A stretch of DNA of 64,000 nucleotides, from assembly GCF_900101395.1 (NCBI RefSeq), contig NZ_FMZO01000001.1:124001-188000 (forward strand). The letters are read 5' to 3'. The notes beneath the pieces are model-generated. The model saw only the letters and a program-made list of their open reading frames with translations. It was not told the origin of the DNA and searched no databases. Below are positions 13,519-52,511 of the stretch, in pieces. Source of the stretch: Niabella drilacis (lineage in GTDB: Bacteria; Bacteroidota; Bacteroidia; Chitinophagales; Chitinophagaceae). How positions within the stretch are numbered: position 1 is the stretch's first letter; every line of letters begins with the position of its first letter. Both the position numbers and the translations under genes were made by a program.

Positions 13519-14370
13519 TTATTTGTATACCTGCTGGTAAGAAAGCGGGCTCATGCCGGTAATCTGTTTAAAACATTTGTGAAAAGAAGCCGTATTCTGA
13601 AACCCGCTTTCATAACACAGGCGTTTGATGGGGTGATCGGTTGTCACCAGTTGCCGGCATACATAGCCCACCCGCAGTTCGGCAATAAATTGCGAATAGG
13701 TTTTCCGGGCGCGTTGCCTGAAATAGCGGCTGAATGCGTGGGGGCTTACATGGGCCACCCGGGCAATTTCCGGGAGCGGGATCTTCCTCCTGAAGTGTTT
13801 CACCGTATATTCATAAACTTCATGGATCCTTTTTCCCTCAAAATTTCCTGCACTGAGGCAGCTGTTTTCTGAAGAAAGACTGGTAACGGGGCCCCAGTCC
13901 GCGATCTTGGAAAGCAATGTTGCCAGGGAGATGATCCGGTAGGGCCCTTCCGCATGGACCAGGTAATGAAAGGAAGGAACCATGGGCTGAATGTTTCCGT
14001 GGATCAGGAGCCCCCTGCGGGCTTTTTGGAGCAGCAACCGGATGCCCTCGTTTTCGGGGAGATCCAGGAAGGCTTTTCCCCAGAAGGTCTCGTGGAAATG
14101 AATGGCAATAACATCGATAGGGGCGTTTTTTTCAAAATAGCACTCGTCAAATTTCCAGTAATGGGGTAGACGGGATCCTATCAGACACAGGGTCCCTGCC
14201 GAAAAATAACGGGTATGGTCGCCGATCAACAGGGTTCCCGTTCCCCGGGCAATATAGATCAACTCAGCTTCCTTATGACAATGCCAGCGGCTATTAACGG
14301 GAGCCTGGTCTCTTCTGACCGCAAAAGAAGCGCCCGGCGTTGCCATCATTTTTAATACATGTGGTTTCAT
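13519..14370 (-). CDS. Cupin/AraC-family regulator at the edge of the PUL
   Basis: A 283-residue cytoplasmic regulator. The N-terminal ~100 residues form an AraC-type cupin sensor (RWHCHKEAELIYI and GTGTLLIGDH segments). The C-terminal ~100 residues hold the two-helix DNA-binding domain, with IARVAHVSPHAFSRYFRQ and IKRLCYESGFQNTASFHKCF. It is transcribed divergently from susC1 across a ~190-bp shared upstream region, the usual position of a local activator or repressor. It is therefore the best candidate for sugar-dependent control of module 1; this is inferred from position only. Starts at ATG 14370. Confidence 0.88.
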   Translation of the reverse strand: MKPHVLKMMATPGASFAVRRDQAPVNSRWHCHKEAELIYIARGTGTLLIGDHTRYFSAGTLCLIGSRLPHYWKFDECYFEKNAPIDVIAIHFHETFWGKAFLDLPENEGIRLLLQKARRGLLIHGNIQPMVPSFHYLVHAEGPYRIISLATLLSKIADWGPVTSLSSENSCLSAGNFEGKRIHEVYEYTVKHFRRKIPLPEIARVAHVSPHAFSRYFRQRARKTYSQFIAELRVGYVCRQLVTTDHPIKRLCYESGFQNTASFHKCFKQITGMSPLSYQQVYK

Positions 14371-14561
14371 ACAAATGTCGGTTGACCCCGAGAAGGTAAA
14401 TGAAATATACGCCGGAATCAGGTTTGGGTATTTGCTGATGCCAAAATAGCTTACTAGTTGGATAATGTTGATACTTCTTTTGCCCCCAAAACATACGTAC
14501 TTGCAGTCTGTGCAAACGATTGAACAAACCTCTTAAATTAAACTGTATGACGTATTGCTTT

Positions 14562-17500
14562 ATGAAAAAAAAGCGCAGGCTTATGCAACTGCTGGTCCTG
14601 ATCCCGCTCTTGTTTTCTCTTCCGGTTTTTTTGCAGGCGCAAAAGAACGTTCCGGTAAAGGGAACAGTGGTGGATGAAAAGGGCAACCCTGTTTCACAGG
14701 TATCGGTTTCGCTGAAAGGCTCGGATCGCGGAACAATGACAGATTCTTCCGGGCGGTTTTCTATCCAGGTCCCTGATGGAAAGGGATCCCTCATTTTTAC
14801 CGCTGTTGGTTTCACCGGTTTTGAACAGGTGTTAAACCAGGAGGGACCTGTAAATGTGGTCTTAAAACAGGAGTTGAGCGACCTGGATGAGATCGTGGTG
14901 GTCGGTTACGGAACCCAGCGTAAGCGGGATGTGACCGGTGCAATTTCCTCGATCAGCTCGAAACAAATTGAAGAGCGGCAGCCCGTCAATTTGTTTGATG
15001 CACTGCAGGGACAGGCTGCGGGGGTGCTGGTGGTGAACGATGGCGGCGGCGCTCCGGGGGCTGAAGGTTCCATCCAGATCCGGGGAGCTTCCACGCTTAA
15101 CGGGGGCAATGGCCCGCTATACCTGGTTGACGGTGTGATCAACCCGGATGGAGCCCGTATCAATCCAATGGATATTGAGCGGATCGAAGTACTGAAGGAT
15201 GCTGCTTCAGCTGCTATTTATGGTGCAAGGGCGGCCAATGGTGTGATCATCATTACCACCAAAAAAGGAAAAGAAGGCCGGCCGAGGATCGACCTGAATT
15301 ATTCCCGCATTTTTGGAAGGCTGGCGCACAAGCTGCCGCAAAATAATTCCGCCGAAGTACGCGAGTTCAGAAGGATCCAGGAACGGAACCCCGGCAATAC
15401 GGATTCATTGAACCCCGGCTTTAACTCGGATAATGACCTGCAGCAGATCCTGCTGGGTAATCTTGGAGACCGGCAGCAGGTAAACCTGGGGATCAGCGGC
15501 GGACAAAAAGGATTGAGTTATTATACCGGTGTGAACTATCTTAACGACAAGTCGATCATTTTAAACAGTTATTTAAAACGGGTACAGGTAAGAACCAATG
15601 TTGAATACCAGGCTTCACCCAAATTCAAGTATGTGAGCAATATTTCTATGTTGTGGCAAACCGGTAATGAAGTGCCGATTGCGCGAACGGTTGCGGTGGC
15701 ATTTGACCGGCCTGCCTATTCGCTGATCTATTATCCGGATGGCTCGCTCACCAGCTATGTCGGGTCCAAACGCAACCCGGTGGCCAACGCTATATACGAA
15801 ACCAATAAAACCGATGTGTTCTCCATCCAGTTTGCCAATTCGCTGCAATACCGGATCACGAAAGACCTGCTGTTTACCACCACGTTTAACGCCATGCTGG
15901 ATAACCGCCAGAATTTGCAGTTCTCGCCCAGGTATGTTTCGGCCAATAAGGATCAGAACAATGGCGCTAATGACATGCAAAAAGTATTTTCCTGGGAATA
16001 CCAGTCGTTCTTTAACTATAACAAAACGTTTAACGGCAATCATAACCTGCAGGCCACATTGGGTGTGAGTGCAGATAAGCGGCGGTACGACAGGGAGCAT
16101 TCCGAATATGCCAATGTAGTGAGTGAGGAAATATTTATTACGCAGCCGGCTTACCTGACAGCTTCCAAAACCTATTCGGATGCCGACGTTACCGCGGGGG
16201 CCAATTTATTTGCCAGGGCCAACTACAGCTATAAGGGCCGGTACACGCTGGCCGGTATATTCCGTCGTGATGGTTCTTCCCGTTTTGGCAGCGAATCCCG
16301 GTATGGTAACTTTTATTCTGCATCTGCAGGATGGCGGTTCTCTGATGAAAAGTTCATGTACTGGGCAAAAGATGTGTTAACGGACGGCCGGTTCCGGATC
16401 GGCTTTGGCCAGGTAGGTAACGACCGTATCGGTTCCAACGATTATCTGAACAAGATCACGTTCAACGGGAGCTATGCAGGAGTGGGCGGCGCTTATACTA
16501 CCGCTACGTTCGGAAATGAACGCGTGCATTGGGAAACCACCCAGCAGCAGAATGCCGGCCTGGATCTGACCTTCTTCCGCGGGCGGCTGACCTTTACGGC
16601 GGACTACTATATCAAAACAACAAAAGACCTCCTGTATGAGAAAGCACTTCCGGGCGAAACCGGTTTTGATAACGTGAAGGTGAATATAGGAACATTGGAG
16701 AATCGCGGGCTGGAGTTCTCAGCCAAAGGTACCCCTGTTCTTGCAAAGGACAGCAGGGGCCTGACCTGGGAGATCGGTGGAAATATTTCATTTGAAAGGA
16801 ACATCATTAAAAAACTGGGTGACGGGATGCCGTTTATCGTAGCTGACAAATGGTATATTGAAGAAGGCGGAAGGATCGGTAATTTCTTTGGCTGGAAAAA
16901 CCTTGGGGTATACGCGTGGAATGAATCCAACGCATATAACGATAACTGGGACCGGCTTACAGTAGTGCTGGGGGCGGATGGAAAACCGTTGTATGAGAAT
17001 GGGAAGCCCGTATACACGTTTAACGGGCAGCCTTATACCGGGGCCGTGCACCAGATGTATGATCCCGGTGGTAAACTGCGTGGGGGAGATGTGATCTGGG
17101 AGAATAAAAACAAAGACAGCCTGATCGATGACCGCGACCGGCAGATCCTGGCCAACGCACAACCCAAGTTTTACCTGGGGATCCTTAATAACCTCAATTA
17201 CCGGCAATTCTCACTGTCTTTCCTGGTCAACGCATCTTTTGGCGCACATGTGTACAATGCATTGCTGGCCGCGCAAAGTTATCCATCCAATACAGGAGCC
17301 GGGAGCCCGGAAATGGTTTACAATGTATGGAGACAGCAGGGTGATATAGCTAAATATCCTTATTACCCCGATTTTAAAAACAGGGGGAATGAGAAAAAGG
17401 ATGCAAACAGTATCTTCATTGAGGACGCTTCTTTTATCAGGCTCTCCAGTTTGCGCCTTTCATATACGTTCCTGCCCGGCATAACCCGGAAGATCCTCCT

Positions 17501-17666
17501 GAAAGGAGCAACGGTTTATGTGTATGGTACCAACCTGCTTACCTGGACTAACTACAGGGGGTATGATCCTGAATTCAGTACCTCCAATATACTGCAGCCG
17601 GGTTATGATAACGGGAAGTACCCCAAAAGACGGGAGTATGGGTTTGGCATCAATGTTAACTTTTAA
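14562..17666 (+). CDS. SusC/RagA-family TonB-linked outer-membrane transporter (module 1)
   Basis: Energised beta-barrel that imports oligosaccharides through the outer membrane together with its SusD lid. The 1034-residue product starts MKKKRRLMQ with a signal peptide ending LQAQ; alternative starts at 14547 (ATG) and 14520 (TTG) only lengthen the n-region. Next come a carboxypeptidase-D-like domain (VKGTVVDEKGNPVSQVSVSL), the TonB-box/plug start DEIVVVGYGTQRKRDVTGA and the SusC plug motif IYGARAANGVIIITTKKG, then the 22-strand barrel ending in an aromatic residue (VNF). It has no N-terminal STN domain, unlike the second SusC of this locus, so it is not a FecR-type signal transducer. SusD1 begins 9 bp later. 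Confidence 0.96.
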   Translation: MKKKRRLMQLLVLIPLLFSLPVFLQAQKNVPVKGTVVDEKGNPVSQVSVSLKGSDRGTMTDSSGRFSIQVPDGKGSLIFTAVGFTGFEQVLNQEGPVNVVLKQELSDLDEIVVVGYGTQRKRDVTGAISSISSKQIEERQPVNLFDALQGQAAGVLVVNDGGGAPGAEGSIQIRGASTLNGGNGPLYLVDGVINPDGARINPMDIERIEVLKDAASAAIYGARAANGVIIITTKKGKEGRPRIDLNYSRIFGRLAHKLPQNNSAEVREFRRIQERNPGNTDSLNPGFNSDNDLQQILLGNLGDRQQVNLGISGGQKGLSYYTGVNYLNDKSIILNSYLKRVQVRTNVEYQASPKFKYVSNISMLWQTGNEVPIARTVAVAFDRPAYSLIYYPDGSLTSYVGSKRNPVANAIYETNKTDVFSIQFANSLQYRITKDLLFTTTFNAMLDNRQNLQFSPRYVSANKDQNNGANDMQKVFSWEYQSFFNYNKTFNGNHNLQATLGVSADKRRYDREHSEYANVVSEEIFITQPAYLTASKTYSDADVTAGANLFARANYSYKGRYTLAGIFRRDGSSRFGSESRYGNFYSASAGWRFSDEKFMYWAKDVLTDGRFRIGFGQVGNDRIGSNDYLNKITFNGSYAGVGGAYTTATFGNERVHWETTQQQNAGLDLTFFRGRLTFTADYYIKTTKDLLYEKALPGETGFDNVKVNIGTLENRGLEFSAKGTPVLAKDSRGLTWEIGGNISFERNIIKKLGDGMPFIVADKWYIEEGGRIGNFFGWKNLGVYAWNESNAYNDNWDRLTVVLGADGKPLYENGKPVYTFNGQPYTGAVHQMYDPGGKLRGGDVIWENKNKDSLIDDRDRQILANAQPKFYLGILNNLNYRQFSLSFLVNASFGAHVYNALLAAQSYPSNTGAGSPEMVYNVWRQQGDIAKYPYYPDFKNRGNEKKDANSIFIEDASFIRLSSLRLSYTFLPGITRKILLKGATVYVYGTNLLTWTNYRGYDPEFSTSNILQPGYDNGKYPKRREYGFGINVNF

Positions 17667-17675: not shown

Positions 17676-19250
17676 ATGAAAAAGCTGAGTTATATCATTA
17701 TCGTTTGCGCTATTACTATATGCGGAGGCTGCAAAAAGTTCCTTGATCTTTCGCCACAGGCACAGGTGGCCCAGAATAAATTTTACAAAACATTATACGA
17801 TGTTAATGCGGCTGTTGCGGGTATGTATTCCGGGTTCCAGCAGCAAATGGTTGGCAGCGACGGGAATTACAAGGAAAAAGCACTGTTCTGGGGCGATTAC
17901 CGCTCTGATAATTTTGACCGCTTCCTGAGCTATACCACGGTTACTACCACCGAGGTAACAATGAATGCATTGACAACGGATAATGCTTTTTCCGACTGGT
18001 CTGGCTTATACACCGTGATCGGAAGAGCGAATGCCAATATCAAATACATCCCGGGTGCCGCCGTAACGGATAGCCGGGTTACCGAAGCCGTGATGAATAA
18101 GGCGCTGGCCGAAAGCTATGCCATGCGTGCCATCTGTTACTTTTACATTGTAAGGGTGTGGGGCGATGCGCCTGTTTGGACCACCCCTATGGAGAGCCTG
18201 TCGGATTCGCTTGAAAAACCACGCACGGCGGCTGCGAAGGTGATCGATGAACGCATCATACCGGACCTCACCGATGCTTATGCTCTGGTTACAAAAAACC
18301 AGACGGCTTCGGTATGGACGATCGGTGAAGGCGCTATCTGCGCCATCCTGGCAGATGTATATATGTGGAAGCATGACTATGCCAATGCGATTATATGGAT
18401 GAAGAACCTGTTTAAGGCAAAAGGTCCTACGGGGGCATTGTACGCCGGTGCAAGCGGGGCCAATCTTCAGCCGCAGGCAACCTGGAAAAATCTGTTCACG
18501 GTGCCCAATACGAGCATCGAGTCGATCTGGAGCATTCACTGGGATTTCCTGAAAAATGATTGTGCCTGCATGACCACATCCTGGACGGCCAATAACAAAC
18601 CCATTTCCATGGATATTGACCTGTATAACAACTGGGTGATGCCACAAACAGTTGCGGCCCCGGTTCCTGTGGATATTCGCTCCAAACAAACGATTGATCC
18701 TTATTCTGCAGGTAACGACCCAACCAAATCAAACCGCGACCGGTTTATCAAGTGGTATGCTTCCCCTGTTAATCCAACCAAGGCTTCCACGGCAGCAGAG
18801 CTGGCAACCTATTATTTTAAGGAAGCGCCGGTATACCTGTCGATGTACCGGTTAGCCGATATTTACCTGTTATATGCAGAGGCATTAAATGCAACGGGTG
18901 AGCTGTCAGAAGCGCTGAAATACCTCAATTTTGTACGGGTGCGGGCAGGATTGCCGGCATATATAGCAGACACGCCGCCGGTTGCCGACCAGCCTTCAAT
19001 GGCCGATGCCATCCTGAAGGAACGCCAGATGGAACTGGTAGGGGAAGGTAAAAGATGGTTTGATCTTGTTCGTACCGGTAATGTGATAAAGATCATGGAC
19101 CCCATATTGAGAAGAAGGCAGATCTCCGCCGGAACTCCTGCAGGGGAAGCCATTGGGTTTAGCGATCCGCGGAGGATTTTGTGGCCGATAAACCGGAGTG
19201 TGCTGAATGCGAACAAGAAACTGGTGCAAAATCCCGGCTACGGCGGATAA
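17676..19250 (+). CDS. SusD/RagB-family glycan-binding lipoprotein (module 1)
   Basis: A 524-residue surface lipoprotein that caps the SusC barrel and binds the glycan. Signal peptide with lipobox ending GGC (Cys19), followed by the characteristic KKFLDLSPQ. The helical SusD scaffold with TPR-like segments is recognisable, including ALAESYAMRAICYFYIVRVWGDAPV near residue 150, the YRLADIYLLYAEALN segment, and the C-terminal KERQMELVGEGKRWFDLVRTG and ILWPIN motifs. It lies 9 bp after susC1 and clearly forms an operon with it. Confidence 0.95.
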   Translation: MKKLSYIIIVCAITICGGCKKFLDLSPQAQVAQNKFYKTLYDVNAAVAGMYSGFQQQMVGSDGNYKEKALFWGDYRSDNFDRFLSYTTVTTTEVTMNALTTDNAFSDWSGLYTVIGRANANIKYIPGAAVTDSRVTEAVMNKALAESYAMRAICYFYIVRVWGDAPVWTTPMESLSDSLEKPRTAAAKVIDERIIPDLTDAYALVTKNQTASVWTIGEGAICAILADVYMWKHDYANAIIWMKNLFKAKGPTGALYAGASGANLQPQATWKNLFTVPNTSIESIWSIHWDFLKNDCACMTTSWTANNKPISMDIDLYNNWVMPQTVAAPVPVDIRSKQTIDPYSAGNDPTKSNRDRFIKWYASPVNPTKASTAAELATYYFKEAPVYLSMYRLADIYLLYAEALNATGELSEALKYLNFVRVRAGLPAYIADTPPVADQPSMADAILKERQMELVGEGKRWFDLVRTGNVIKIMDPILRRRQISAGTPAGEAIGFSDPRRILWPINRSVLNANKKLVQNPGYGG

Positions 19251-19315: not shown

Positions 19316-20113
19316 ATGAAAATATTCAGAGGCATTATGAACAGCATCCTGGTGCTTGCCGTAGTTGCAACTTTTTTGCCGGGATGTAAAAAACTGCTGG
19401 GGCTAAGCCGGCAGGAGAACTATGATTATAAAAAGGAAACGCTGGACCCCAATATTCACATGACAGCCAGGGAGTTTTTGCTGAAGAGGGCCGATGGTAC
19501 ACCCGAGGCGCCCAATGATACCGTATTCAGGTGGATGAAGAAGGGACTGGATTATTGCGGGTTGGATCTTTCCGAGTATGAAAAGGCGGGAAGAACATTT
19601 ATATTCCTGCACAATGATGCCGTGCGGGGCTTTAACGCTTCGGGCGTAATGGACAAAGGATTGTTCTTTACCTTTCCCATTGTGAACCTGGATCAGAACG
19701 GCAACCCCATCATGAACCCTCTCACCGGTCTGCCACAAACACATCCTGCTACCAAATGGGAAGATTACTCAAAGGAAACGGTAAAGAATTTTTTCCTGTA
19801 TCTTATTGGGGAGGGCATACACAATTATTATGATCTGAATGCAGAGAACCGATCCGTACAATCGCTGCTGCCTCCTAATAGCACAGCTACAAAGGAATCC
19901 CTGCTGGGCTACTGGGATCCCTCCCTGCCCGGGTTCAACGGGGCAGGCGGAAAAGGATTTGACCCCCAGGGGAAATTTACGTTGCGTATACAGAATAATG
20001 CCGATATTGCCCCTATTGTATTTAATGACCGCACCAGCAGCCGGTCCATCGGGTTTGTAGCTACCAATGGTGTTGTGCATGTGTATGGTGCAGCGCTGTA
20101 CCCTTCGAAATAA
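19316..20113 (+). CDS. Accessory lipoprotein of the SusCD unit, fasciclin-like
   Basis: A 265-residue lipoprotein (MKIFRG..., lipobox LPGC with Cys24) in the third position of the SusCD operon, where surface glycan-binding proteins usually lie. Residues ~45-110 (TAREFLLKR...FIFLHNDAVRGFN) have the helix-strand pattern of a fasciclin-like domain, and the C-terminus is beta-rich, ending in a VHVYGAALYPSK segment. I do not recognise it as a defined SusE/SusF family. The ATG at 19316 is preferred over an in-frame ATG at 19181 that overlaps susD1 and lacks a signal peptide. Probable role: glycan capture or adhesion at the cell surface. Confidence 0.7.
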   Translation: MKIFRGIMNSILVLAVVATFLPGCKKLLGLSRQENYDYKKETLDPNIHMTAREFLLKRADGTPEAPNDTVFRWMKKGLDYCGLDLSEYEKAGRTFIFLHNDAVRGFNASGVMDKGLFFTFPIVNLDQNGNPIMNPLTGLPQTHPATKWEDYSKETVKNFFLYLIGEGIHNYYDLNAENRSVQSLLPPNSTATKESLLGYWDPSLPGFNGAGGKGFDPQGKFTLRIQNNADIAPIVFNDRTSSRSIGFVATNGVVHVYGAALYPSK

Positions 20114-20122: not shown

Positions 20123-22651
20123 ATGATGTTTTTTGGATCACCCGGGAAAGATATTTTCACACGTATTTCAAAACAAAAACGGTTGCTGTACAAGCCGGCG
20201 CTTCTTTCGGCCGGTATTTTAGCAGCACTGCTGCTGAGTATGGGCGCTGCTGCGCAACAGGCCACCCGCCTGACCCATAACTGGCAATTCCTGAAACAGG
20301 ATCTGGGCGGCATATGGGAAGCCGTACGGCCGGTGAAGGCAGGTAACCCGGAAAGCGTTCCGTTGTGGACCAATGTTACATTGCCGCATTGCGTGAACGC
20401 ACGCGATGCCGTAGACCCCGATGAAAATTATTATCAGGGACCGGCCTGGTACCGTACGCAGCTGGCTGTTAAAAATCCCTATGCAAACGGGCGAACCCTC
20501 CTGCATTTTGAAGGGGCCGGGCAAAAAACAGAAGTATACGTATATACCACGAAAGTGGCCTCGCATGTGGGAGGGTATGATGAATGGACGGCCGACATTA
20601 CAGATGCTGTAAACGCATTCCTGAAACAGGACAGCCTGGTAAAACAATTCAAAGGCAGGGTACCGGTGTCCATTCGCTGCGATAACTCACGCGACCTGGA
20701 AATGATCCCTTCGGATCTTTCGGATTTTAACCTTTATGGTGGTCTGTACCGGTATCTTAACCTGGTATATGTACCCGCTGTTTCCCTGGACAAGGTGTTT
20801 GCAGATGCCGTAACGGGTAAAGATGGCAAATCAGGTACGGTGAATGTACGCACCCGGTTGTATAATCCCGCGGCGGTTACCGGTGAGGCGGAGATGACCC
20901 TGCAGCTGCTGGATCCCAACGGAAAAGTGTTGCAGACGACCCGTAAAAAAAGCAGTGTAGCCGGTGAGTACCGCTTTGATGAGCTGAAAGTGAACCGGCC
21001 GCAGCTGTGGTCGCCCGGAACACCGGCCCTTTATACCCTGGTGACCACGGTCCGTACAGCAGATGGGATATCTGAAGCGCGGACAAAAATAGGCTTCCGG
21101 AATTTTGAGTTTGTAAAACACGGCCCCTTCCTGCTCAATGGCCAACGGCTTTTATTGAGAGGCACACACCGGCACGAAGATCATGCCGGTGTAGCCGCCG
21201 CCATGACGGAAGATATGATGCGGGCTGAAATGATCTCCATGAAGGAGATGGGCGTTAACTTTATCCGGCTGGGGCATTACCAGCAATCGCGCATCATTTT
21301 AAATTTATGCGACAGCCTGGGCATCCTGGTATGGGAAGAAATACCCTGGTGCCGGGGCGGTTTGGGCGGTGATGTATATAAGGAGCAGGCCCGGCGCATG
21401 CTCACCCATATGATCGAACAGCACTATAATCACCCTTCGGTGATCATCTGGGGCCTGGGAAATGAGAACGACTGGCCCGGTGATTTCCCCACATTTGACA
21501 AAGAAAAGATCCGGCAGTTCATGAAGGAATTGAATGACCTTTCGCACCGCCTGGATCCTTCCCGCAAAACCGCTATCCGCCGTTGCGACTTTTGCAGTGA
21601 TATTGTGGATGTGTATTCACCCTCCATCTGGGCTGGCTGGTATCGTGGTATTTATACGGAGTATAAGGAGGTTACCAAAGCGGAGTTTGATAAGGTGGAT
21701 CATTTTTTACATGTGGAATGGGGCGGCGACAGCCATGCGGGGCGGCATTCTGAAAACCCGGATAGATCCTTACAGAATATCAAGGCCTCCGGTGCCGCTG
21801 ATGAGCGCGCCGGGGATGCCTCTTTATATGGCGGGGCCGCCCGGGCTTCAAAGGATGGTGACTGGAGCGAGACCTATATCTGCAACCTGGTAGACTGGCA
21901 TTTAAAAGAACAGGAAACCATGCCCTGGCTCACGGGTACAGCGCAGTGGCCCTTTAAAGATTTTTCTACACCGGTACGTCCGGATAATCCCATTCCGTAT
22001 ATGAATCAGAAAGGAGTGGTAGAACGGGATCTTACCAGGAAAGAAGCCTATTATGTGTTCCAGTCCTACTGGACCAGCAAACCCATGGCGCATATTTACG
22101 GGCATACCTGGCCGGTGCGCTGGGGCAATGAAGATGAGGAAAAAATGATCAAAGTGTATTCCAATTGTGACGTTGCGGAATTGTTTGTAAATGGCAAATC
22201 CTTTGGAACTAAAAAAAGGAACAGCCAGGATTTTCCTGCTGCCGGCCTGCGTTGGAATGTGCCGCTGAAAAAAGGCGAGTATGTGGTTACCGTAGTGGCG
22301 AAAAAGGGAAAAGAAACCGTTACCGATGAGATCCGGTTTGAATACCAGACCGAAAAATGGACAAAACCCGCGCGGTTGGAGTTGAAAAAAATAAAAGAGG
22401 AAGATGGTGTCGTTACCCTTCAGGCACAGCTATTGGATGATAAAGGCGTGCCCTGCCTGGATGCAACGGACTGGATCCGTTTTGGATTAACGGGAGATGG
22501 CCGCTTACTGGATGACCTGGGAACTTCTTCCGGATCCAGGTATCTGCAATGCTATAACGGCCGGGCGCTCATCCGCGTGCAGAAAGGAAAAGACCGGGTG
22601 GTGGCAAGTGCCCGATCCGGTAAATTGCCCATAGCTTTTGTGGACCTGTAA
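20123..22651 (+). CDS. Glycoside hydrolase family 2 (beta-galactosidase/beta-glucuronidase type)
   Basis: An 842-residue exported retaining beta-glycosidase. A long basic n-region precedes the hydrophobic segment ending MGAAAQ. Domain order is the GH2 jelly-roll (from ~50, with QGPAWYRT), the immunoglobulin-like domain (~220-330), the TIM barrel with RLLLRGTHRHEDH and acid/base Glu448 in GLGNEND, then HVEWGG with Glu532 as likely nucleophile, and a C-terminal DUF4982-like plus beta-sandwich region. The sugar specificity (galactoside, glucuronide or other) cannot be read from sequence. Begins 9 bp after the accessory lipoprotein gene, so it belongs to the same transcript. Confidence 0.9.
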   Translation: MMFFGSPGKDIFTRISKQKRLLYKPALLSAGILAALLLSMGAAAQQATRLTHNWQFLKQDLGGIWEAVRPVKAGNPESVPLWTNVTLPHCVNARDAVDPDENYYQGPAWYRTQLAVKNPYANGRTLLHFEGAGQKTEVYVYTTKVASHVGGYDEWTADITDAVNAFLKQDSLVKQFKGRVPVSIRCDNSRDLEMIPSDLSDFNLYGGLYRYLNLVYVPAVSLDKVFADAVTGKDGKSGTVNVRTRLYNPAAVTGEAEMTLQLLDPNGKVLQTTRKKSSVAGEYRFDELKVNRPQLWSPGTPALYTLVTTVRTADGISEARTKIGFRNFEFVKHGPFLLNGQRLLLRGTHRHEDHAGVAAAMTEDMMRAEMISMKEMGVNFIRLGHYQQSRIILNLCDSLGILVWEEIPWCRGGLGGDVYKEQARRMLTHMIEQHYNHPSVIIWGLGNENDWPGDFPTFDKEKIRQFMKELNDLSHRLDPSRKTAIRRCDFCSDIVDVYSPSIWAGWYRGIYTEYKEVTKAEFDKVDHFLHVEWGGDSHAGRHSENPDRSLQNIKASGAADERAGDASLYGGAARASKDGDWSETYICNLVDWHLKEQETMPWLTGTAQWPFKDFSTPVRPDNPIPYMNQKGVVERDLTRKEAYYVFQSYWTSKPMAHIYGHTWPVRWGNEDEEKMIKVYSNCDVAELFVNGKSFGTKKRNSQDFPAAGLRWNVPLKKGEYVVTVVAKKGKETVTDEIRFEYQTEKWTKPARLELKKIKEEDGVVTLQAQLLDDKGVPCLDATDWIRFGLTGDGRLLDDLGTSSGSRYLQCYNGRALIRVQKGKDRVVASARSGKLPIAFVDL

Positions 22652-27598: not shown

Positions 27599-27695
27599 CA
27601 GTTATGGACCGCAAAGGCAGGAAGGTGTAAAGGTACGTCTGTAAAAGGGGAGAAGCATTGGGGTATCCCACGTTTCCCGGGATAAATTTTTGGAA

Positions 27696-42426: not shown

Positions 42427-42539
42427 AAATTTTGACTGAGAAATAATATGAAATGAAGCATGAAAAATATTCGTTTTCCTACCCGGAAGGATGACGGTTT
42501 TTTTATGCGAAACTCCATGAGAATCCCGGCCCACAGGAC

Positions 42540-42595: not shown

Positions 42596-42612
42596 AAATA
42601 AAAAATATACAG

Positions 42613-44775: not shown

Positions 44776-44888
44776 ACGGCGTTCCGGGAACGGATCGGGA
44801 ATATATAGCTGAATAGTTAGCTAAATCTGAGGATAGCCGGTGCGGTGGAATTTGTATTTTAGCAGGAAGTTTGTTAAAATACAAAAAC

Positions 44889-46154
44889 ATGAGAGCAACG
44901 ATCAGGAGATGCGTGGTTTCAGGGGTGCTGTTTTTAGCACTGAGTACAGGGCTGTTCGCGGCCGCCCGGGGTATCACGGAACCTAAGCAAAGTTATGTTC
45001 AAAGAAATACGCTGAACGCGTTGCAGCCGTTGCCGGCAGAATCGTTTATCCATGCTTATGGAACGCTGGATAATCTATGGTTCCGGGTCAGTAATAAAAA
45101 AGAAGTAACCGTTGCTTTCCTGGGGGGATCCATCACCAATATGACGGGCTGGCGCAATAAGGTAGAGCGCTATCTGGCGGAGCAGTATCCCCAGGTGCAT
45201 TTCCGCTTTCTGAATGCCGGTATTCCGTCGCTGGGCAGCCTGCCTCATGCCTTCCGGTTTCAGAAAGATGTGTTGGACCAGGGGCCGGTGGATCTGCTGT
45301 TTATCGAGTCGGCGGTGAATGACTATGTGAACGGGACTCCTGCAATACAACAGCGCCGCGCCTTAGAGGGGATTATTCGTCATGCGCTGACGGGTAACCC
45401 GGGTATGAATATCGTGCTGATGGGTTTTGCCGATGAGTTTAAGCTTGCTGATTATGCAGCAGGGAAGGTTCCTGCTGAAATTAAATTGCACGATACACTG
45501 GCCCGCTATTACGGTTTGCCGTTCATTAACCTGGCAGAGGAAGTATATCAGCGGATAGCGCACAAAGAATTTACCTGGGCAGGCGATTTTAAGGACCTGC
45601 ATCCTTCACTTTTTGGGCAGGAACTGTATTTTAATACCATAAAGACCCTGTTGCAAATGCAGCTGAAAGGCAGGGCGCCGCGGGCGCTGAGGACAAAAAA
45701 AATACCCCGGCCTTTAGACCCGCTTAACTATGCCGGTGGGCGATACATCCCGGTGAAAAATGCTGCTATTGAAAAAGGGTTTGTATGGTCTGCTTCCTGG
45801 ACGCCGGCCGACAATGCAGGCACAAGACCGGGCTTTGTGAAGGTCCCGGTGCTTGAGGGGGTAACTCCCGGGGCGGCTGTAACGCTTTCGTTCCGGGGCA
45901 CGGCCGTGGGTATTGCGGTCGTTTCCGGTCCGGATGCCGGTGTGATCCGCTATTCCGTTGATAACGGGCCGGAGCAGTCGCTCGATCTGTATACGCAATG
46001 GAGCAGTGGGCTACATTTACCCTGGTACCTGTTGCTTGGCGACGGGCTGAAAGAAGGAAAGCACCAACTGAAGATCTCGATTGCGGATCAGCATAATCAG
46101 CGGTCGCGGGGCAATGCGGCCAGGATCGTATATTTTTTGGTAAATGAGCAATAA
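44889..46154 (+). CDS. SGNH/GDSL-type hydrolase, probable carbohydrate esterase
   Basis: A 421-residue exported protein; the ATG at 44889 opens a signal peptide ending LFAAA. SGNH blocks are visible: block I VAFLGGSIT with the nucleophile serine, block II glycine in NAGIPSLGS, block III SAVND, and block V DLHPS with the catalytic Asp-His pair. The C-terminal ~150 residues form a beta-sandwich accessory domain. In a PUL such enzymes usually remove acetyl groups from the glycan. Follows the small lipoprotein after ~110 bp. Confidence 0.85.
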   Translation: MRATIRRCVVSGVLFLALSTGLFAAARGITEPKQSYVQRNTLNALQPLPAESFIHAYGTLDNLWFRVSNKKEVTVAFLGGSITNMTGWRNKVERYLAEQYPQVHFRFLNAGIPSLGSLPHAFRFQKDVLDQGPVDLLFIESAVNDYVNGTPAIQQRRALEGIIRHALTGNPGMNIVLMGFADEFKLADYAAGKVPAEIKLHDTLARYYGLPFINLAEEVYQRIAHKEFTWAGDFKDLHPSLFGQELYFNTIKTLLQMQLKGRAPRALRTKKIPRPLDPLNYAGGRYIPVKNAAIEKGFVWSASWTPADNAGTRPGFVKVPVLEGVTPGAAVTLSFRGTAVGIAVVSGPDAGVIRYSVDNGPEQSLDLYTQWSSGLHLPWYLLLGDGLKEGKHQLKISIADQHNQRSRGNAARIVYFLVNEQ

Positions 46155-46217: not shown

Positions 46218-48023
46218 ATGGATTTAATAAAAAGAGAGATGAAGTTTATTTTAGTTGCATTGGTTTGGTGTATGTCCCTTTGCTGTGTGGCGCAGCAGGG
46301 CATGGAAGAGATGTGGGATCAGTCGTCATCCGCGAAGCAACATTCCAATATCCGGTGGTTCAGAGAGGCAAAGTTCGGGCTGTTTATTCATTGGGGATTG
46401 TATTCCCGGCTGGCCGGCACCTGGGACGGGAAAAACTACTATGGCAGCGGGGAATGGATTATGAACCAGGCAAAGATACCGGTGAGCCGCTATCGCAAAG
46501 TGGCCGAAAGCTTCAACCCGGTAAATTTTAATGCCGATGAATGGGCGCAACTGGCAAAGGATGCGGGTATCAAATACATGGTGATCACAGCCAAGCATCA
46601 TGAAGGCTTTTCTATGTTTGACTCGAAAGTAACGGACTTCGATATTGTGGATGCAACGCCCTACAAAAAGGATCCCATGAAAGCCCTGGCCGCAGCAACA
46701 AGAAAAAGAGGGATACAATTCGGATTCTACTATTCCCAGTTCCAGGATTGGTATGAGCCCAACGGCGGAAGGAATACCTGGGATTTTGATGAGTCGAAAA
46801 AAGACTACCAGCAATACTATCGTCAAAAAGCCATACCGCAACTGAAGGAACTGCTGACCAATTATGGCCCGCTCGGGATCGTTTGGTTCGATACGCCCGG
46901 AGGTATGACCAGGGAACAAACGCAGGCCTTTATTGATGAACTGCGGGTATTGCAGCCGCAAAGCCTGTTTAGCAGCCGGGTAGGGCAGGGGCTGGGGGAC
47001 TACAAGGATTTTGGTGATTCGGAAGTGCCGCCGGTACCCATTGAAGGTGCCTGGGAATCGATCTACACACATAATGATTCCTGGGGGTATATCGCGCATG
47101 ATATGAATTTTAAATCATCGCATGAGATCATCCGGCTCCTGTCTAACGTGGCTTCCAAAGGCGGCAACCTGATGCTGAATGTGGGCCCGGACGGCAAAGG
47201 GAATATTCCCTATTATTCTATAAAGTACCTGAAGGAGACCGGTGCATGGCTTCAGAAAAACGGGGAAAGTATTTATGCCTCCACTGCCGGCTGGATACCG
47301 GCGCAACCCTGGGGGGTAACCACTGCAAAACCAGGCAGACTTTTTCTCCATATTTGGGAACAGCCGGGGAACGGGCAGTTACTGGTGCCGGGCTTTGCCA
47401 ACAGGGTAACCCGGGTATACGCCTTAACGGATAAAAAAGTGCTTTCTTATAACCAGAACGGCAGCGACCTGGTTGTGAATACCACAGCCCTGCGGAGTGA
47501 GCATACACCCGACAAGGTTGTGGTAGTGGAATACAGCGGTACAACTCCGGCTTATAATGCAACGGCTCCCGTTACAGTTTCTGCCCAATACGCCGTTAAC
47601 CCGGTGAATGCAGTTTTTGCAGCCGTAAAAGGACAGGCCCGTGTGGAGTCGCTGACCTATAGTCATTACTTTGGCGACTGGAAGCACACGACCTGTATTA
47701 CCGGTATGAGGGCCCCTGAGGATGCCGTTTCATTTACAGTGCGGGTTACAGAGCCGGGAGATTATAAGCTGGTCCTGGAGTATGCCTGTCCGCAGGAAAG
47801 CGCCAAACAGGAAGGACGCCTGGAGGTGGATGGCAAAACCTATATGTTCCGTACATTGAGGACTTCTGAATTTGATAAATCGGCCCCGCTGTTGTTTATC
47901 AAACACCCGGTCACAATTTTCACAGTACAGAAGGCCGGCGTATATACCATCACCATCAGCCCCTGCCGGCAGGGAAAGGAGTTGTTTAAACTAAAGGGCA
48001 TTATTGCAGAGCCGCTGAAATAG
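46218..48023 (+). CDS. Glycoside hydrolase family 29 alpha-L-fucosidase (third copy)
   Basis: A 601-residue exported fucosidase (an internal ATG at 46239 would also give a good signal peptide ending CCVAQ). Core motifs: AKFGLFIHWGLYSRLAG, TAKHHEGFSMF, nucleophile Asp225 in IVWFDTP, and GGNLMLNVGPDGKG. The common HHDG of the other two copies is HHEG here. A C-terminal ~120-residue beta-sandwich resembles a carbohydrate-binding accessory domain. Begins module 2's catabolic run after the SGNH esterase. Confidence 0.93.
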   Translation: MDLIKREMKFILVALVWCMSLCCVAQQGMEEMWDQSSSAKQHSNIRWFREAKFGLFIHWGLYSRLAGTWDGKNYYGSGEWIMNQAKIPVSRYRKVAESFNPVNFNADEWAQLAKDAGIKYMVITAKHHEGFSMFDSKVTDFDIVDATPYKKDPMKALAAATRKRGIQFGFYYSQFQDWYEPNGGRNTWDFDESKKDYQQYYRQKAIPQLKELLTNYGPLGIVWFDTPGGMTREQTQAFIDELRVLQPQSLFSSRVGQGLGDYKDFGDSEVPPVPIEGAWESIYTHNDSWGYIAHDMNFKSSHEIIRLLSNVASKGGNLMLNVGPDGKGNIPYYSIKYLKETGAWLQKNGESIYASTAGWIPAQPWGVTTAKPGRLFLHIWEQPGNGQLLVPGFANRVTRVYALTDKKVLSYNQNGSDLVVNTTALRSEHTPDKVVVVEYSGTTPAYNATAPVTVSAQYAVNPVNAVFAAVKGQARVESLTYSHYFGDWKHTTCITGMRAPEDAVSFTVRVTEPGDYKLVLEYACPQESAKQEGRLEVDGKTYMFRTLRTSEFDKSAPLLFIKHPVTIFTVQKAGVYTITISPCRQGKELFKLKGIIAEPLK

Positions 48024-48237: not shown

Positions 48238-49770
48238 ATGAAATGGAAATGTATTTGTTGCCTGTCATTCTTACTTGTCAGCGGTAGCATAAATGCTGCA
48301 GTAAAATTGCCTGCGGTGATTGCCGATCACATGGTACTACAGCAAAGGACGACGGTAGCATTATGGGGCTGGGCAACCCCGGGGGAGCGTATTAGGATCC
48401 AATGCAGCTGGAACCGGCAACCGGTAACCGTAATGGCCGGTATGGACGGGCGCTGGATAGCGCATGTAAAGACCATCGCGGCCGGTGGCCCGTACACGAT
48501 CCGTTTTAACGGAACAAACGTCATTGAAATTAATGATGTATTACTGGGCGAAGTGTGGCTTTGCTCCGGGCAGTCGAATATGGAATTCCCGCTGGCCAAG
48601 CAAAAGGCCTGGCGCACCGGGGTAACCGGCTACGAAGAAGAAGTGGCAAAAGCTTCAGATCCCCGCCTGCGGCTCTTTACCGTACAACAGGAAGTGGCCG
48701 GAACACCGCGGCCGGATCTGCAGGGCAGCTGGGCGCCCACCACACCGGAAACTGCAGCCACGTTTTCTGCGGTTGCTTATTATTTTGGCAAAGAGATCAG
48801 GGAAGCAACCGGGGTGCCCGTGGGATTGATCCACTCGTCCTGGGGCGGAACACCCGCAGAGTCCTGGACACGAAAAGAAGTACTGGATACCGGCAGGGAG
48901 TTTCGCCGGATACTTGATCGTTACGAAACAGCCGTAAAAACATACCCGGAAGAACTGGCGAAGTACGGGCAGGAACGGGATCAATGGCTGAAAGATTCGG
49001 CAACACACCCGGAAAGGCTCCGTAAAAAGCCCGCGCGTCCGCTGGAGCCCGAGCAAAATTCCAAATCGCCTACGAAATTGTACAACGCTATGATCCATCC
49101 CCTCATCCCGTTTACCCTGAAAGGGGTGATCTGGTACCAGGGCGAATCCAATGCCGGCAGGGCCTACCAGTACCGCCAGTTGTTCCCGGCCATGATCCGT
49201 AGCTGGAGAAAGGAATGGAAAGCGGACTTCCCCTTTTATTTTGTGCAGATCGCACCACATTACCAGCAAAACCCCGAGATCCGGGAAGCCCAGTTACTAA
49301 CCTATAAAACAGTAGCGGGTACGGGTATGGCCGTGATCACTGATGCCGGTGATTCGTTAAATATCCATCCGCGGAATAAAGCAGTAGTGGGGCACCGGCT
49401 TGCCTTGTGGGCCCTGGCAAAAAACTATGGGAAAAAGAACCTGGTTTATTCCGGTCCGCTTTATGAATCGGCCCGGCAGGAGGGAAATAAAATGCGGGTC
49501 CGGTTTTCGTTTGCTGATGGCGGACTGGTTGCAAAAGATGGCTTACTGACCGGGTTTACCATTGCGGGCACTGACCGGCAGTTTGTTCCCGCAACAGCCG
49601 TAATAGAAGGAAACACCGTTGTGGTAAAAAGCGATGCTGTCGCCAAACCCGTTGCCGTCCGGTTTGGCTGGAGCAGGGTTCCCCATGCCGTGTTGTATAA
49701 TAAAGCAGGATTGCCCGCATCGCCCTTTCGTACGGACGACTGGCCCGGAGCAACCTTTAATAAGAACTGA
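48238..49770 (+). CDS. Sialate O-acetylesterase-type carbohydrate esterase
   Basis: A 510-residue exported esterase (signal peptide ending SINAA) of the SASA/CE20-like group. The nucleophile is Ser113 in LCSGQSNMEFPL; the WYQGESNA motif near residue 300 and the DSLNIHPRNKAVVGHRLA segment with the catalytic His complete the active site. Such enzymes remove O-acetyl groups from glycans, not necessarily sialic acid. No sialidase or sialate catabolic gene is present, so deacetylation of the PUL substrate is more likely. Confidence 0.88.
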   Translation: MKWKCICCLSFLLVSGSINAAVKLPAVIADHMVLQQRTTVALWGWATPGERIRIQCSWNRQPVTVMAGMDGRWIAHVKTIAAGGPYTIRFNGTNVIEINDVLLGEVWLCSGQSNMEFPLAKQKAWRTGVTGYEEEVAKASDPRLRLFTVQQEVAGTPRPDLQGSWAPTTPETAATFSAVAYYFGKEIREATGVPVGLIHSSWGGTPAESWTRKEVLDTGREFRRILDRYETAVKTYPEELAKYGQERDQWLKDSATHPERLRKKPARPLEPEQNSKSPTKLYNAMIHPLIPFTLKGVIWYQGESNAGRAYQYRQLFPAMIRSWRKEWKADFPFYFVQIAPHYQQNPEIREAQLLTYKTVAGTGMAVITDAGDSLNIHPRNKAVVGHRLALWALAKNYGKKNLVYSGPLYESARQEGNKMRVRFSFADGGLVAKDGLLTGFTIAGTDRQFVPATAVIEGNTVVVKSDAVAKPVAVRFGWSRVPHAVLYNKAGLPASPFRTDDWPGATFNKN

Positions 49771-49826: not shown

Positions 49827-50963
49827 ATGAAACGGAACCTTGCATTATTTACTGCCCTGGTGTTGGTGATAAGCGGCACTACGAACGCTCAATCTGCAAA
49901 AACTGTGTCCGCCTTTAAAAACTGGCCCGCCGGCAGCGCTCCAAAACAGATCGGGAACAGGATCGCCAGCCGGTTTATTGCCACACCGCATACCAATTTT
50001 AACCGGCCGGGACCGCCCAGGGTAATCACTTATCCCGAAACCTGCACCTGGTATGGAGCGCTCACTTTTGCAAAGGCAACGGGCAACAAAAAGTTTACAC
50101 AACAACTGGTTGCCCGTTTTGAGCCGCTGCTGGGCAGTCGCGATACCCTGGTCCCCATACCGGACCATGTGGATTACACCGTGTTCGGATCCGTACCGTT
50201 TGAATTGTATATGCAAACAAAAGATGCTCGTTACCTGAAACTGGGAAAGCATTTTGCCGACAAGCAATGGGGCCCGCCGGAGGGAAAAAGGGTCACTGCG
50301 GAATCGCACCGTTTTTATAACAAAGGTCTTACCTGGCAAACGCGGTTGTGGATCGATGATATGTTTATGATCACGGCGGTACAGTCGCAGGCCTATCGTG
50401 CTACCGGTGACCGCACATATATTGACAAGGCTGCTGATGAAATGGTCTTTTACCTGGATTCGCTGCAACAGTCCAACGGGCTGTTTTATCATGCGCCGGA
50501 TGTACCTTATTTCTGGGGAAGAGGAGACGGGTGGATGGCCGTTGGAATGAGTGAACTGCTGCGTTCCCTTCCGAAGGACAACCCCAACAGGCCCCGGATC
50601 ATGCAGGGATATAAAAAAATGATGGCCACCCTGCTGAAGTACCAGGCGGAAGATGGTATGTGGCGGCAGTTGATCGATGATCCTGCATCCTGGAAAGAAA
50701 CCTCCTGTACCGGTATGTTTACCTGTGCATTTATCACGGGCGTAAAAGAAGGGTGGCTGGATGAGAAGGTGTACGGACCAGCGGCCCGCAAAGCCTGGTT
50801 GTCGCTGATCCGGTACATCAATGCCGACGGAGATATTTCCGGCGTATGCGAAGGAACCAACAAGAAAAATGATCACCAGTATTACCTGGATCGCAAACGG
50901 ATCACCGGCGATCTGCACGGCCAGGCACCGCTGCTCTGGTGCGCAACAGCTTTATTGCGGTAA
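49827..50963 (+). CDS. GH105-type unsaturated rhamnogalacturonyl/uronyl hydrolase
   Basis: A 378-residue exported enzyme (signal peptide ending TTNAQ) with the six-hairpin fold of the GH88/GH105 clan. Motifs: LWIDDMFMITAVQSQAYRATGD with candidate catalytic aspartates 177/178, the GH105-like YFWGRGDGW near 228-236, and TCTGMFTCAF. It removes unsaturated uronic acids produced by lyases. It differs clearly from the GH88 protein at 30863, suggesting two different unsaturated products. Last + strand gene of the PUL. Confidence 0.9.
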   Translation: MKRNLALFTALVLVISGTTNAQSAKTVSAFKNWPAGSAPKQIGNRIASRFIATPHTNFNRPGPPRVITYPETCTWYGALTFAKATGNKKFTQQLVARFEPLLGSRDTLVPIPDHVDYTVFGSVPFELYMQTKDARYLKLGKHFADKQWGPPEGKRVTAESHRFYNKGLTWQTRLWIDDMFMITAVQSQAYRATGDRTYIDKAADEMVFYLDSLQQSNGLFYHAPDVPYFWGRGDGWMAVGMSELLRSLPKDNPNRPRIMQGYKKMMATLLKYQAEDGMWRQLIDDPASWKETSCTGMFTCAFITGVKEGWLDEKVYGPAARKAWLSLIRYINADGDISGVCEGTNKKNDHQYYLDRKRITGDLHGQAPLLWCATALLR

Positions 50964-50971: not shown

Positions 50972-50999
50972 ACCTGTTAGGTCTTAAGACCTGGCAGGT
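50972..50999. terminator. Palindromic element between convergent genes
   Basis: ACCTG-tt-AGGTCTTAAGACCT-gg-CAGGT: a perfect 14-bp palindrome inside outer complementary arms, exactly filling the gap between the convergent GH105 and beta-helix genes. There is no long T-run. It may be a bidirectional terminator or one copy of a dispersed palindromic repeat. Confidence 0.55.
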
Positions 51000-52511
51000 T
51001 CACTGCCCGCGGGCTTTGAGCTGCGCTAAATAAAGGGAGGCCGGTTCAAGACCCGGTTTATTCTGGCCCTCCCATTCACCATCGGGCCGCGCTGCCAACC
51101 GGCCTTTTGCTTTTTGTCCCCGTAGCCCGATGCAATAATTTTTGCCGGATACCCAGGGGCTTTGCACGGTGGCTTTTTGGGCAGTACAGTTCCAGAGGAC
51201 CTGGTTTACACCGGCCCAGCCATGACCGCTTCCCCAGTTGCCCCGGTCCTGTATATTGATTTCCCCATCGGTGATGATATTGTCGTACAGGGTGCCCATG
51301 GCCCACCGGTGGTGCGGCCCTATATCGGCATGTGTACGGGATGCGGTGCAATTGTAAAAAACATTGGGACCACATACCCGGGCGCCGGTTACATAATCAT
51401 GGCGGCCGTCCCGGGCAGTACAATTCATAAACAGGTTCATTTGCCCGTTGTTATTAAAAGAATAGCGGCGTCCGCCGGTAATGATGGATTTATGATCGGA
51501 ACATACACAATTGAGCACAGAGATATTCCTGGACAATGCCCCCAGGTTTACACAGGAATAAGCAAAATACCGGGCACTTACATTGCTGACCCACCCATTT
51601 TCGATCCGGTTCAGTGCCACTGCATCCCAGGAATGGTTTTCTGCTGTATCTGAGGTATATGCCGAAGCACAGGCAAGATTTTCTATTCCAACATTGGCGA
51701 TCCTGCCCGGGAACTCGTATGTGTAAACTTCTGCAGTATTATACCTGCCTTCTATCGCCATCACTACCGGGTTGTCGATAAAGAGGGTATTGCCTTCAAT
51801 ACGGGTGACAGTACGCTGAAATTTGAAGTCATACTCCTTAGCCTGCCACTGTTTGGTGCCCGGGCGCTCTTCGATCTGGTTCATTTTCAGATCTTCGATC
51901 CATTGGTCCTTAGCCGTCCAGTGGATGATAACAGGATCTCCCGGTTTAAAAGCACGGGCCGATTTTACGGGGATGGCCATGCTGCCTGTGGGCACATAAT
52001 CAGCTGCAACAGACGTACGGGTTCCTTTTACTTCTTTGGGATCACCGGTTCCGGATACGTTGATCAGCGCACGTTTTCCGGAGCCCTCCGCAACCAGCAG
52101 GGTTTGGTTGCCTTCGCCCCTCAATACAATTCCGCTCGCATTGATCCTGATACTGTTTGCTATGGAATAAGTGCCTTTCCTTAACAGGATGGCTCCGCGA
52201 AATCCATTTTTATCCATAGCCTTTTTTGAAAGGGCATCAATAGCCTGTTGAATGGCGCTCTCCGCACCGGATCCGGGGCCTACGATGGCTGCGACCGGTA
52301 CATCAGGAATGGGCACATTCCCGGTCCGGTAGCCTACTTTGCTGAAATCCGGCAGGGTATTCCCTTTTTCATCCGCCTTATAGGTAAGCGTACCGTTGCT
52401 GTTCAGCACCGCAAGGGAAGACGGCCAGTTCTGGACCGTCTTAAAAGAAAAGGCGGAGATACAAAGGACCAGTAAACAGAAAGAAGCGACGCGCACCTGC
52501 ATATGAAACAT
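51000..52511 (-). CDS. Exported right-handed beta-helix protein, unassigned (copy B)
   Basis: A 503-residue exported protein (MFHMQVRVAS..., signal peptide to about residue 23; a second ATG at 52502 is possible), homologous along its length to the protein at 35536-37128. Shared features: IQQAID, FRGAILLRKGTY, ASGIVLRGEG, PHHRWAMG (399-406), (D)RG, GSGHGWAG (427-434), WNCTAQ and PASLYLAQL. The central rungs are rich in N/C ladder residues (VLNCVCSDH, LFMNCTARD, VFYNCTAS), as in beta-helix lyases. Its opposite orientation to the PUL implies its own promoter. Function probably glycan cleavage; family not recognised. Confidence 0.75.
   Translation of the reverse strand: MFHMQVRVASFCLLVLCISAFSFKTVQNWPSSLAVLNSNGTLTYKADEKGNTLPDFSKVGYRTGNVPIPDVPVAAIVGPGSGAESAIQQAIDALSKKAMDKNGFRGAILLRKGTYSIANSIRINASGIVLRGEGNQTLLVAEGSGKRALINVSGTGDPKEVKGTRTSVAADYVPTGSMAIPVKSARAFKPGDPVIIHWTAKDQWIEDLKMNQIEERPGTKQWQAKEYDFKFQRTVTRIEGNTLFIDNPVVMAIEGRYNTAEVYTYEFPGRIANVGIENLACASAYTSDTAENHSWDAVALNRIENGWVSNVSARYFAYSCVNLGALSRNISVLNCVCSDHKSIITGGRRYSFNNNGQMNLFMNCTARDGRHDYVTGARVCGPNVFYNCTASRTHADIGPHHRWAMGTLYDNIITDGEINIQDRGNWGSGHGWAGVNQVLWNCTAQKATVQSPWVSGKNYCIGLRGQKAKGRLAARPDGEWEGQNKPGLEPASLYLAQLKARGQ

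Follow-up and report, generated by a model that had tools for sequence, protein, structure and literature searches.

Gene content and layout of the locus

The locus studied here is a cluster of about 39 kb at positions 13519-52511 of a 64,000-nucleotide stretch of Niabella drilacis DNA (contig NZ_FMZO01000001.1, C29:124001-188000 in our numbering of the 6.10-Mb genome), hereafter the window. It joins SusC/SusD pairs, carbohydrate-active enzymes and regulators in one co-oriented cluster, and is thus a polysaccharide utilization locus (PUL). With slightly better than even confidence, we read it as a single PUL for a polyuronide that would be O-acylated and not sulfated, with beta-linked glucuronic acid (GlcA) in its chain and with side groups of alpha-L-fucose partly capped by alpha-D-galactose. 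The observations behind this reading are the gene content, the conserved gene order and the conserved key residues, and they support the original prediction, made from the sequence alone, of a target rich in fucose and uronic acid. The enzyme classes of that prediction were all recovered by Pfam where it had placed them (GH2, GH95, GH31, three GH29, PL6, GH88 and GH105), as were two SusC/SusD pairs at 14520-19250 and 38992-44262; the two esterases (GDSL and SASA) and two beta-helix proteins that it listed are also present. PF07470 was matched twice, by GH88 (30842-32056) and by GH105 (49827-50963). An AraC-type regulator and an extracytoplasmic function (ECF) sigma/FecR pair (37146-38849) also belong to the PUL and are added to the list. 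The features are as follows, AF2 denoting an AlphaFold2 model.

13519..14370, minus strand: AraC-type regulator, divergent from the PUL (Pfam HTH_18 2.9e-19, AraC_binding)
14520..17666, plus strand: SusC1 TonB-dependent transporter (TIGR04056, 764 bits)
17676..19250, plus strand: SusD1 surface lipoprotein (SusD_RagB 2.1e-35)
19316..20113, plus strand: LP1 lipoprotein with FAS1 (fasciclin-like) fold in the AF2 model (no Pfam match)
20123..22651, plus strand: GH2, predicted beta-glucuronidase or galacturonidase (6d7j, 1215 bits)
22800..25364, plus strand: GH95 alpha-L-fucosidase or L-galactosidase (PF22124 9.7e-185)
25451..27598, plus strand: GH31, predicted alpha-galactosidase of PsGal31A type (4xpo, 1178 bits)
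27690..28865, plus strand: PL38-type lyase, candidate main backbone cutter (PF05426 'Alginate_lyase' 2.9e-91)
28891..30813, plus strand: GH29a alpha-L-fucosidase (PF01120 1.2e-84)
30842..32056, plus strand: GH88 unsaturated glucuronyl hydrolase (PDB 3wiw, 393 bits, residues 16-397)
32354..33727, plus strand: PL6 lyase (Chondroitinas_B 1.9e-43; 7o84, 128 bits)
33893..35317, plus strand: GH29b alpha-L-fucosidase (PF01120 2.1e-87; PDB fucosidases)
35536..37128, plus strand: BH1 beta-helix protein, candidate uronate lyase (BH2 paralogue; weak BT_3328 match)
37146..37730, plus strand: ECF sigma factor (Sigma70_r2/r4)
37821..38849, plus strand: FecR-type anti-sigma factor (FecR 3.6e-20)
38992..42426, plus strand: SusC2 (TIGR04056, 856 bits over residues 130-1144)
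42460..44262, plus strand: SusD2 (SusD_RagB 1.5e-37)
44266..44775, plus strand: LP2 small lipoprotein (no Pfam match; position after SusD2)
44871..46154, plus strand: SGNH esterase (Lipase_GDSL_2 3e-14)
46218..48023, plus strand: GH29c alpha-L-fucosidase (PF01120 5.9e-88)
48238..49770, plus strand: SASA-type acetylesterase (PF03629 7.5e-20)
49827..50963, plus strand: GH105 unsaturated uronyl hydrolase (PF07470 4.7e-60; solved relatives 3k11 and YteR)
51000..52511, minus strand: BH2 beta-helix protein, candidate uronate lyase (AF2 model, Foldseek, BT_3328 38 bits)

From SusC1 (14520) through GH105 (50963), every gene lies on the plus strand with intergenic gaps of 3-297 bp, and the two minus-strand genes, AraC and BH2, stand one at each end; 17 bp separate the end of BH1 from the start of the second-module sigma factor. 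The whole genome is strongly fucose-oriented, with 24 PF01120 (GH29), 11 PF22124 (GH95) and 31 PF00884 (sulfatase) matches, fragments included. Spread evenly, the matches would give about 0.15 GH29 and 0.07 GH95 per 39 kb; three and one are observed. The clustering is beyond chance because of the single strand, the small gaps and a gene order kept in other genera and in another family. All 31 sulfatase matches lie outside the window, as the original prediction of a locus lacking sulfatases had it. Upstream of the PUL, an enhancin-like Peptidase M60 is encoded at 9002-11362, with a single gene between them that is dnaX-like by reading.

Predicted activities of the enzymes

The closest solved relative of the GH31 enzyme is 4xpo, and 371 of 514 aligned residues (72%; window residues 17 to about 530) are identical to those of PsGal31A (Pedsa_3617), the GH31 enzyme of Pedobacter saltans. 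Y274, E366, R418, Y432 and W486 of PsGal31A are all kept in the window protein (in this comparison the chain index equals the residue number plus one), which places both enzymes in the same type. A later paper refers to a PsGal31A complex with fucose at the +1 subsite. The predicted GH31 of the original note is accordingly sharpened to an alpha-galactosidase of PsGal31A type that, judging by sequence, would accept L-fucose at +1. An alpha-xylosidase or alpha-glucosidase was rejected, as the full-length match is to an alpha-galactosidase and alpha-xylosidases score far lower; NCBIfam gave alpha-xylosidase and alpha-glucosidase models below their cut-offs and nothing else. PsGal31A-type GH31 occurred in 7 of 395 genomes across the phylum, including the window's own, and among five surroundings fetched, G366 alone had GH95 and GH29 neighbors by similarity to the window enzymes (those of G143 and G333 end at contig ends).

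The identity of GH31 bears on a plant substrate, i.e., mucilage, fucosylated arabinogalactan or acidic xyloglucan, which we consider improbable. Together, GH95 and GH29 enzymes and a GH2 uronidase could remove side chains of fucose and uronate from such a glycan, and the GH105 of the window and the GH28 of some relatives would suit it. However, acidic xyloglucan is rejected because GH31 is predicted not to be an alpha-xylosidase, and the Pfam scan of the 23 PUL proteins found no galactanase, arabinofuranosidase, rhamnosidase, rhamnogalacturonan lyase or endoglucanase, so that the root or seed mucilage and arabinogalactan first suggested as targets are not supported.

For GH2, the predicted class stood and could be narrowed. 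The protein matches 6d7j, a 'Beta-Glucuronidase', over residues 44-842 (1215 bits), and the NQKG segment is identical; the NxK motif marks GH2 glucuronidases. A beta-glucuronidase type is therefore predicted, and a generic beta-galactosidase was rejected on the strength of this match. Both 6d7j and 6d1p, which are presumably gut-derived enzymes, match nearly full length with more than 1100 bits each; unlike them as known, the window GH2 is linked with a lyase, fucosidases and GH31.

The 'alginate-lyase-fold' protein has that fold, and its identity is corrected here to PL38. In a PDB sequence search it matched 3nfv (230 bits) and then 9fi1/8bdq (about 151 bits), which we take to be BoPL38 and whose chain positions 243 and 298 carry H and Y. 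Catalysis by BoPL38 uses H243 and Y298 (PMC13169297). These residues correspond to H224 and Y279 of the window protein in an alignment counted by hand, and both are invariant across 17 PL38 homolog sequences. Sequence match and catalytic His/Tyr pair together assign the protein to PL38, and make it the candidate for the main backbone-cleaving enzyme. Among the PL38 lyases named in PMC13027841 (CUL-I, TpPL38A, BoPL38, RiPL38), it shares the His/Tyr pair with BoPL38, and it is closer to 3nfv than to the BoPL38 entries. The PL6 protein aligns with 7o84 (128 bits) at the K and RHG segments, which are catalytic in PL6; NCBIfam returned a NosD match below cut-off and nothing else. NCBIfam had no matches for PL38, GH95, GH29a, GH29b or GH88. 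The GH88 match 3wiw is, we presume, a heparin-specific GH88-type enzyme of Pedobacter heparinus.

Since PL6 and PL38 both hold alginate lyases, an alginate or brown-algal fucoglucuronan locus was considered, and we regard it as very improbable. The PL17 fold is of the heparinase II/III type, and no model of that type, and hence no PL17 partner for PL6, was matched among the 23 PUL proteins. In gut PULs, PL17 alginate lyases are accompanied by PL6_1 (PMC5966431). The window thus has PL6 and SusCD in common with alginate utilization loci (PL6_1 and PL17_2), but differs from them by the missing PL17-type match and the added fucosidases and glucuronidase. Four fucosidases and a beta-glucuronidase would be superfluous for alginate, no sulfatase is present, and the relatives carrying the locus belong by name mostly to soil and plant genera, going by general knowledge of habitat. 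An alginate utilization locus was therefore rejected.

The two beta-helix proteins, unassigned in the original prediction, are paralogs (30.5% identity over 508 aa) that matched no Pfam model at E<=0.001. The beta-helix is upheld, with a distant likeness to the BT_3328 hyaluronan lyase (PL29, we assume) and to the Klebsiella K1 capsule lyase. The NCBIfam BT_3328 model, whose cut-off is 1100 bits, matched BH1 with 23 bits (1.8e-5) and BH2 with 38 bits (7.4e-10). A 28-sequence profile of the family found 7chu (1.6e-9, a 64-position match) and then the K1 capsule depolymerase 9k4a (6.9e-5) in PDB. The AF2 model of BH2 (predicted local distance difference test, pLDDT, 89.9) retrieved right-handed beta-helix proteins with Foldseek (112 structures at E 0.001 or better), the top two being 9k4a (1.4e-13) and the K1 capsule lyase 7w1c (2.3e-12), at a template modeling (TM) score of about 0.4 and 13-14% identity. 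The likeness is very distant in profile, NCBIfam and fold alike, and offers a lead toward uronate lyase activity. PHROGs gave nothing for BH1, BH2, LP1 or LP2.

These matches to K1 depolymerases, second in the profile search and first in the BH2 fold search, also speak for the main rival, an exopolysaccharide or capsule of GlcA, fucose and galactose made by bacteria, cyanobacteria included (similar to colanic acid or K1), on which the enzymes would act in the same way; we hold it to be possible but rather unlikely. The GH28 of relatives would suit a polymer of galacturonic acid, fucose and galactose. Yet a TM score near 0.4 could reflect generic beta-helix likeness, and no catalytic residue was matched in the profile alignment. 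The Klebsiella K1 capsule consists of glucose, GlcA and fucose with acetyl and pyruvate (PMC8822698). Its fucose is part of the chain itself; the four proteins of fucosidase families in the window would instead point to fucose as side groups.

Of the remaining proteins, LP1 (pLDDT 84.4), whose PDB structure matches include FAS1 domains, is from its model a probable surface glycan-binding protein, and SusC2 appears to have an N-terminal extension resembling that of sigma-coupled transporters.

Conservation among relatives and the probable unity of the two modules

Relatives were collected by a PL38 search at E<=1e-60 in 149 genomes and, in a second, named collection, as the best 80 of at least 575 confirmed relatives; the two locus sets overlap and are not independent (for example, L082-L086 are G005, G010, G001, G016 and G013). 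Of the 149 genomes, 27 had a PL38 match, the window's own among them, as did 11 of 16 other listed genomes of the genus. All 11 Niabella loci keep the order GH2, GH95, GH31, PL38, GH88, PL6, GH29b, and 10 of them have GH29a; the gene lists of G013 and G003 (L039-L040, L079-L080) are rough, as many genes there fall into two or three separate frames, a probable result of assembly errors. From Niabella to Pedobacter the order GH2-GH95-GH31-PL38-GH29a-GH88-(PL6)-GH29b is repeated, apart from losses and a small number of moves, in genera that are mostly soil- and plant-associated.

Near PL38 in the best 80 loci, GH88 was counted in 48, GH2 in 38, GH95 in 33, GH31 in 29, GH29a in 28 and GH29b in 26, followed by PL6 (8), BH2 (7) and GH105 (5); these are lower bounds, counted at >=40% identity within a reach of about 10 kb and with flanks cut. 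Full-type loci, defined by four or more of the six core families, make up 23 of the 80. In simpler loci, among them those of Mucilaginibacter, Hymenobacter and Spirosoma, PL38 is joined by GH2, GH88 or both, without any fucosidase in reach. This pattern would fit a polyuronide core to which a fucose/galactose package was added. Of the unmatched open reading frames (ORFs), 28 of 30 were scanned in full-type loci (the best 25 of 27 families) and 60 of 94 in simple loci (the best 25 of 87); an alpha-galactosidase of melibiase type turned up in one full-type locus. Four Pedobacter loci and one Chitinophagaceae locus (G044) have a PF14099 protein between GH88 and GH29b (L108:14360-15142, L121:14363-15148, L127:14418-15254, L157:12423-13208, L058:4028-4807), a family that we take to hold glucuronan lyase and heparinase I. 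These lyases have about 260 residues, and the Pedobacter ones start with a lipoprotein-like signal; NCBIfam gave nothing for three of them. In G044 a relative of 781 residues follows, with a tail of the type IX secretion system type just above the model cut-off.

The divergent AraC gene immediately precedes SusC1 in 8 of the 11 Niabella loci. Close species have different SusCD pairs, exchanged in cassette fashion, in the SusC1-SusD1-LP1 slot (14520-20113 here, and the same slot in G005a, G010a, G006, G015, G016 and G008). Between G005a and G010a, AraC is 96% and GH2 91% identical, but SusC 43% and SusD 32%; their DNA likeness of about 87% breaks off early in SusC and returns at GH2. Between G016 and G008 the values are 94% (AraC), 90% (GH2), 49% (SusC) and 40% (SusD). 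An LP1 homolog (>=40% identity) occurs in 14 of the best 80 loci, and four LP2 homologs among the locus ORFs searched each follow SusD2. At L030:8251-10788, G005a has a GH95/GH65-like protein of about 845 residues in place of FecR-SusC2-SusD2, and ORFs of similar size occur in G010a and G008; the one in G005a was scanned.

The presence of SusCD and a regulator in each half raises the question of two independent neighboring PULs, module 1 with SusCD1 and module 2 with sigma/FecR/SusCD2. G066, G083 and L088 do have SusCD2-LP2 relatives and lack most of module 1, and the G001 list has SusCD2-LP2 and GH105 without SGNH, GH29c and SASA. However, the SusCD2 type of G066 and G083 (66-68%) sits with GH2-PL38-GH88 of the module 1 type and may serve the same glycan class. 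In 4 of the 11 Niabella loci (G005a, G010a, G016, G008), moreover, the gene list holds no SusCD2 and SGNH-GH29c-SASA is retained with module 1; six other Niabella lists end near SusC2 and are uninformative on this point. Because the second-module enzymes persist without SusCD2, a single PUL is favored. The two modules thus probably act as one, as originally proposed, and two separate PULs seem to us improbable.

The predicted absence of sulfate and presence of acyl groups were tested against the same loci. Using BLASTP with eight of the genome's sulfatases (E<=1e-20, ORFs >=200 aa), no sulfatase-like ORF was found in any of the 23 full-type loci, consistent with an unsulfated target. A sulfated substrate, as for a sulfated-fucan or glycosaminoglycan (GAG) locus, was therefore rejected. 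Outside the full type, sulfatase-like ORFs were seen in L102, L103, L149 and L073; in L102 and L103 (Mucilaginibacter, about 13.8-20.2 kb), three such genes each adjoin a simple GH2-PL38 locus and run on the other strand. Acylation agrees with the SGNH and SASA esterases of the window and with GDSL (4/28) and S9-like hydrolases (6/28) among the relatives' unmatched ORFs.

Proposed substrate and its implications

The order of action, the linkages and the substrate that we infer are these. The SGNH and SASA esterases would deacylate the polymer, GH31 would remove alpha-galactose from fucose, and GH95 with the three GH29 enzymes would strip the fucose. PL38, aided by PL6 and perhaps by BH1/BH2, would then beta-eliminate the exposed uronate chain; GH88 and GH105 would clip the unsaturated uronyl end, and GH2 would take off intact terminal beta-GlcA. 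Oligosaccharides would be taken up via SusCD1 or SusCD2 and sensed by AraC and the sigma/FecR pair. Fucose would pass to an isomerase of FucI type and the unsaturated uronate to one of KduI type; such downstream use is possible, as the genome has FucI and KduI matches at other places.

Among published natural polymers, the best fit is the polyuronide of beta-1,4-glucuronan type that carries fucose and galactose and occurs in the walls and slime of Mucoromycota. According to PMC6433966, the ratio of fucose to mannose, galactose and GlcA in Mucorales glycuronan is 5:1:1:6, and Mucorales slimes are essentially beta-1,4-GlcA with 9-25% fucose. For Umbelopsis walls, two reports put fucose at up to 25% of the sugars (PMC10481521; PMC7928374). 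Such a polymer fits the combination of GH31, four fucosidase-family enzymes, glucuronidase, PL38, GH88 and esterases. The PF14099 proteins and the melibiase-type enzyme of relatives also count in its favor.

Several observations weigh against the fucose- and galactose-bearing glucuronan. GlcA signals were not found in Mucorales walls by solid-state nuclear magnetic resonance (PMC11437000). Mucoran holds mannose, though no mannosidase is among the window proteins. PF14099 had no match in the window's own genome, and no lipobox was seen by eye on the N-termini of the window lyases. The relatives of PL6 include alginate lyases and chondroitinase B. PL38 members cut alginate, hyaluronan and chondroitin (PMC13027841), and an Akkermansia PL38 was assayed on several GAGs (PMC11790493). 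In L149, a GH95 relative and PL38 lie about 8 kb from a sulfatase, and the 60 ORFs scanned from simple PL38 loci included three sulfatases, two heparinase II/III proteins, one PL8 and one UxuA; the PL38 core may therefore serve several beta-GlcA polymers, GAG-like in some species. Finally, a GH28-sized ORF follows GH29b in 5 of the 11 Niabella loci, two being Pfam-confirmed (L034:9651-11180, L043:10398-11945, without counterpart in the window) and the rest called by size, place or N-terminus, and GH28 accounts for 3 of the 28 scanned unmatched ORFs of the other full-type loci. The nearest model to one Pfam-confirmed GH28 is a rhamnogalacturonidase, below cut-off. This GH28 counts against a pure glucuronan, and some versions of the polymer may hold galacturonate.

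The 2015 abstract on PsGal31A is reported to have proposed a new system of sugar breakdown in the neighborhood of genes for fucosidases. The original view that this is not a described PUL agrees with a limited full-text search of open-licence literature, where no PUL with this enzyme combination was found, judging by titles, the openings of abstracts and passages of PMC5966431 and PMC4561380; it is qualified in that the GH31 type had already been characterized from Pedobacter in 2015. Tentatively, and with far more doubt than confidence, the locus may be the first recognized for the Mucoromycota fucose/galactose polyuronide of the mucoran/mucoric-acid type, widespread in soil Bacteroidota, with BH1/BH2 as an undescribed family of beta-helix lyases and with SusCD swapped as a cassette while the enzymes stay fixed. 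If the reading as a PUL for this polyuronide is right, the locus would make available a set of enzymes that can be tested on a fungal polymer of only partly known structure, suggest what the GH31 alpha-galactosidases reported in 2015 do in nature, put BH1/BH2 forward as candidate members of a new lyase family and clearly exemplify the replacement of transporters within a conserved PUL. It would also link soil Chitinophagaceae and Pedobacter to the turnover of Mucoromycota biomass.

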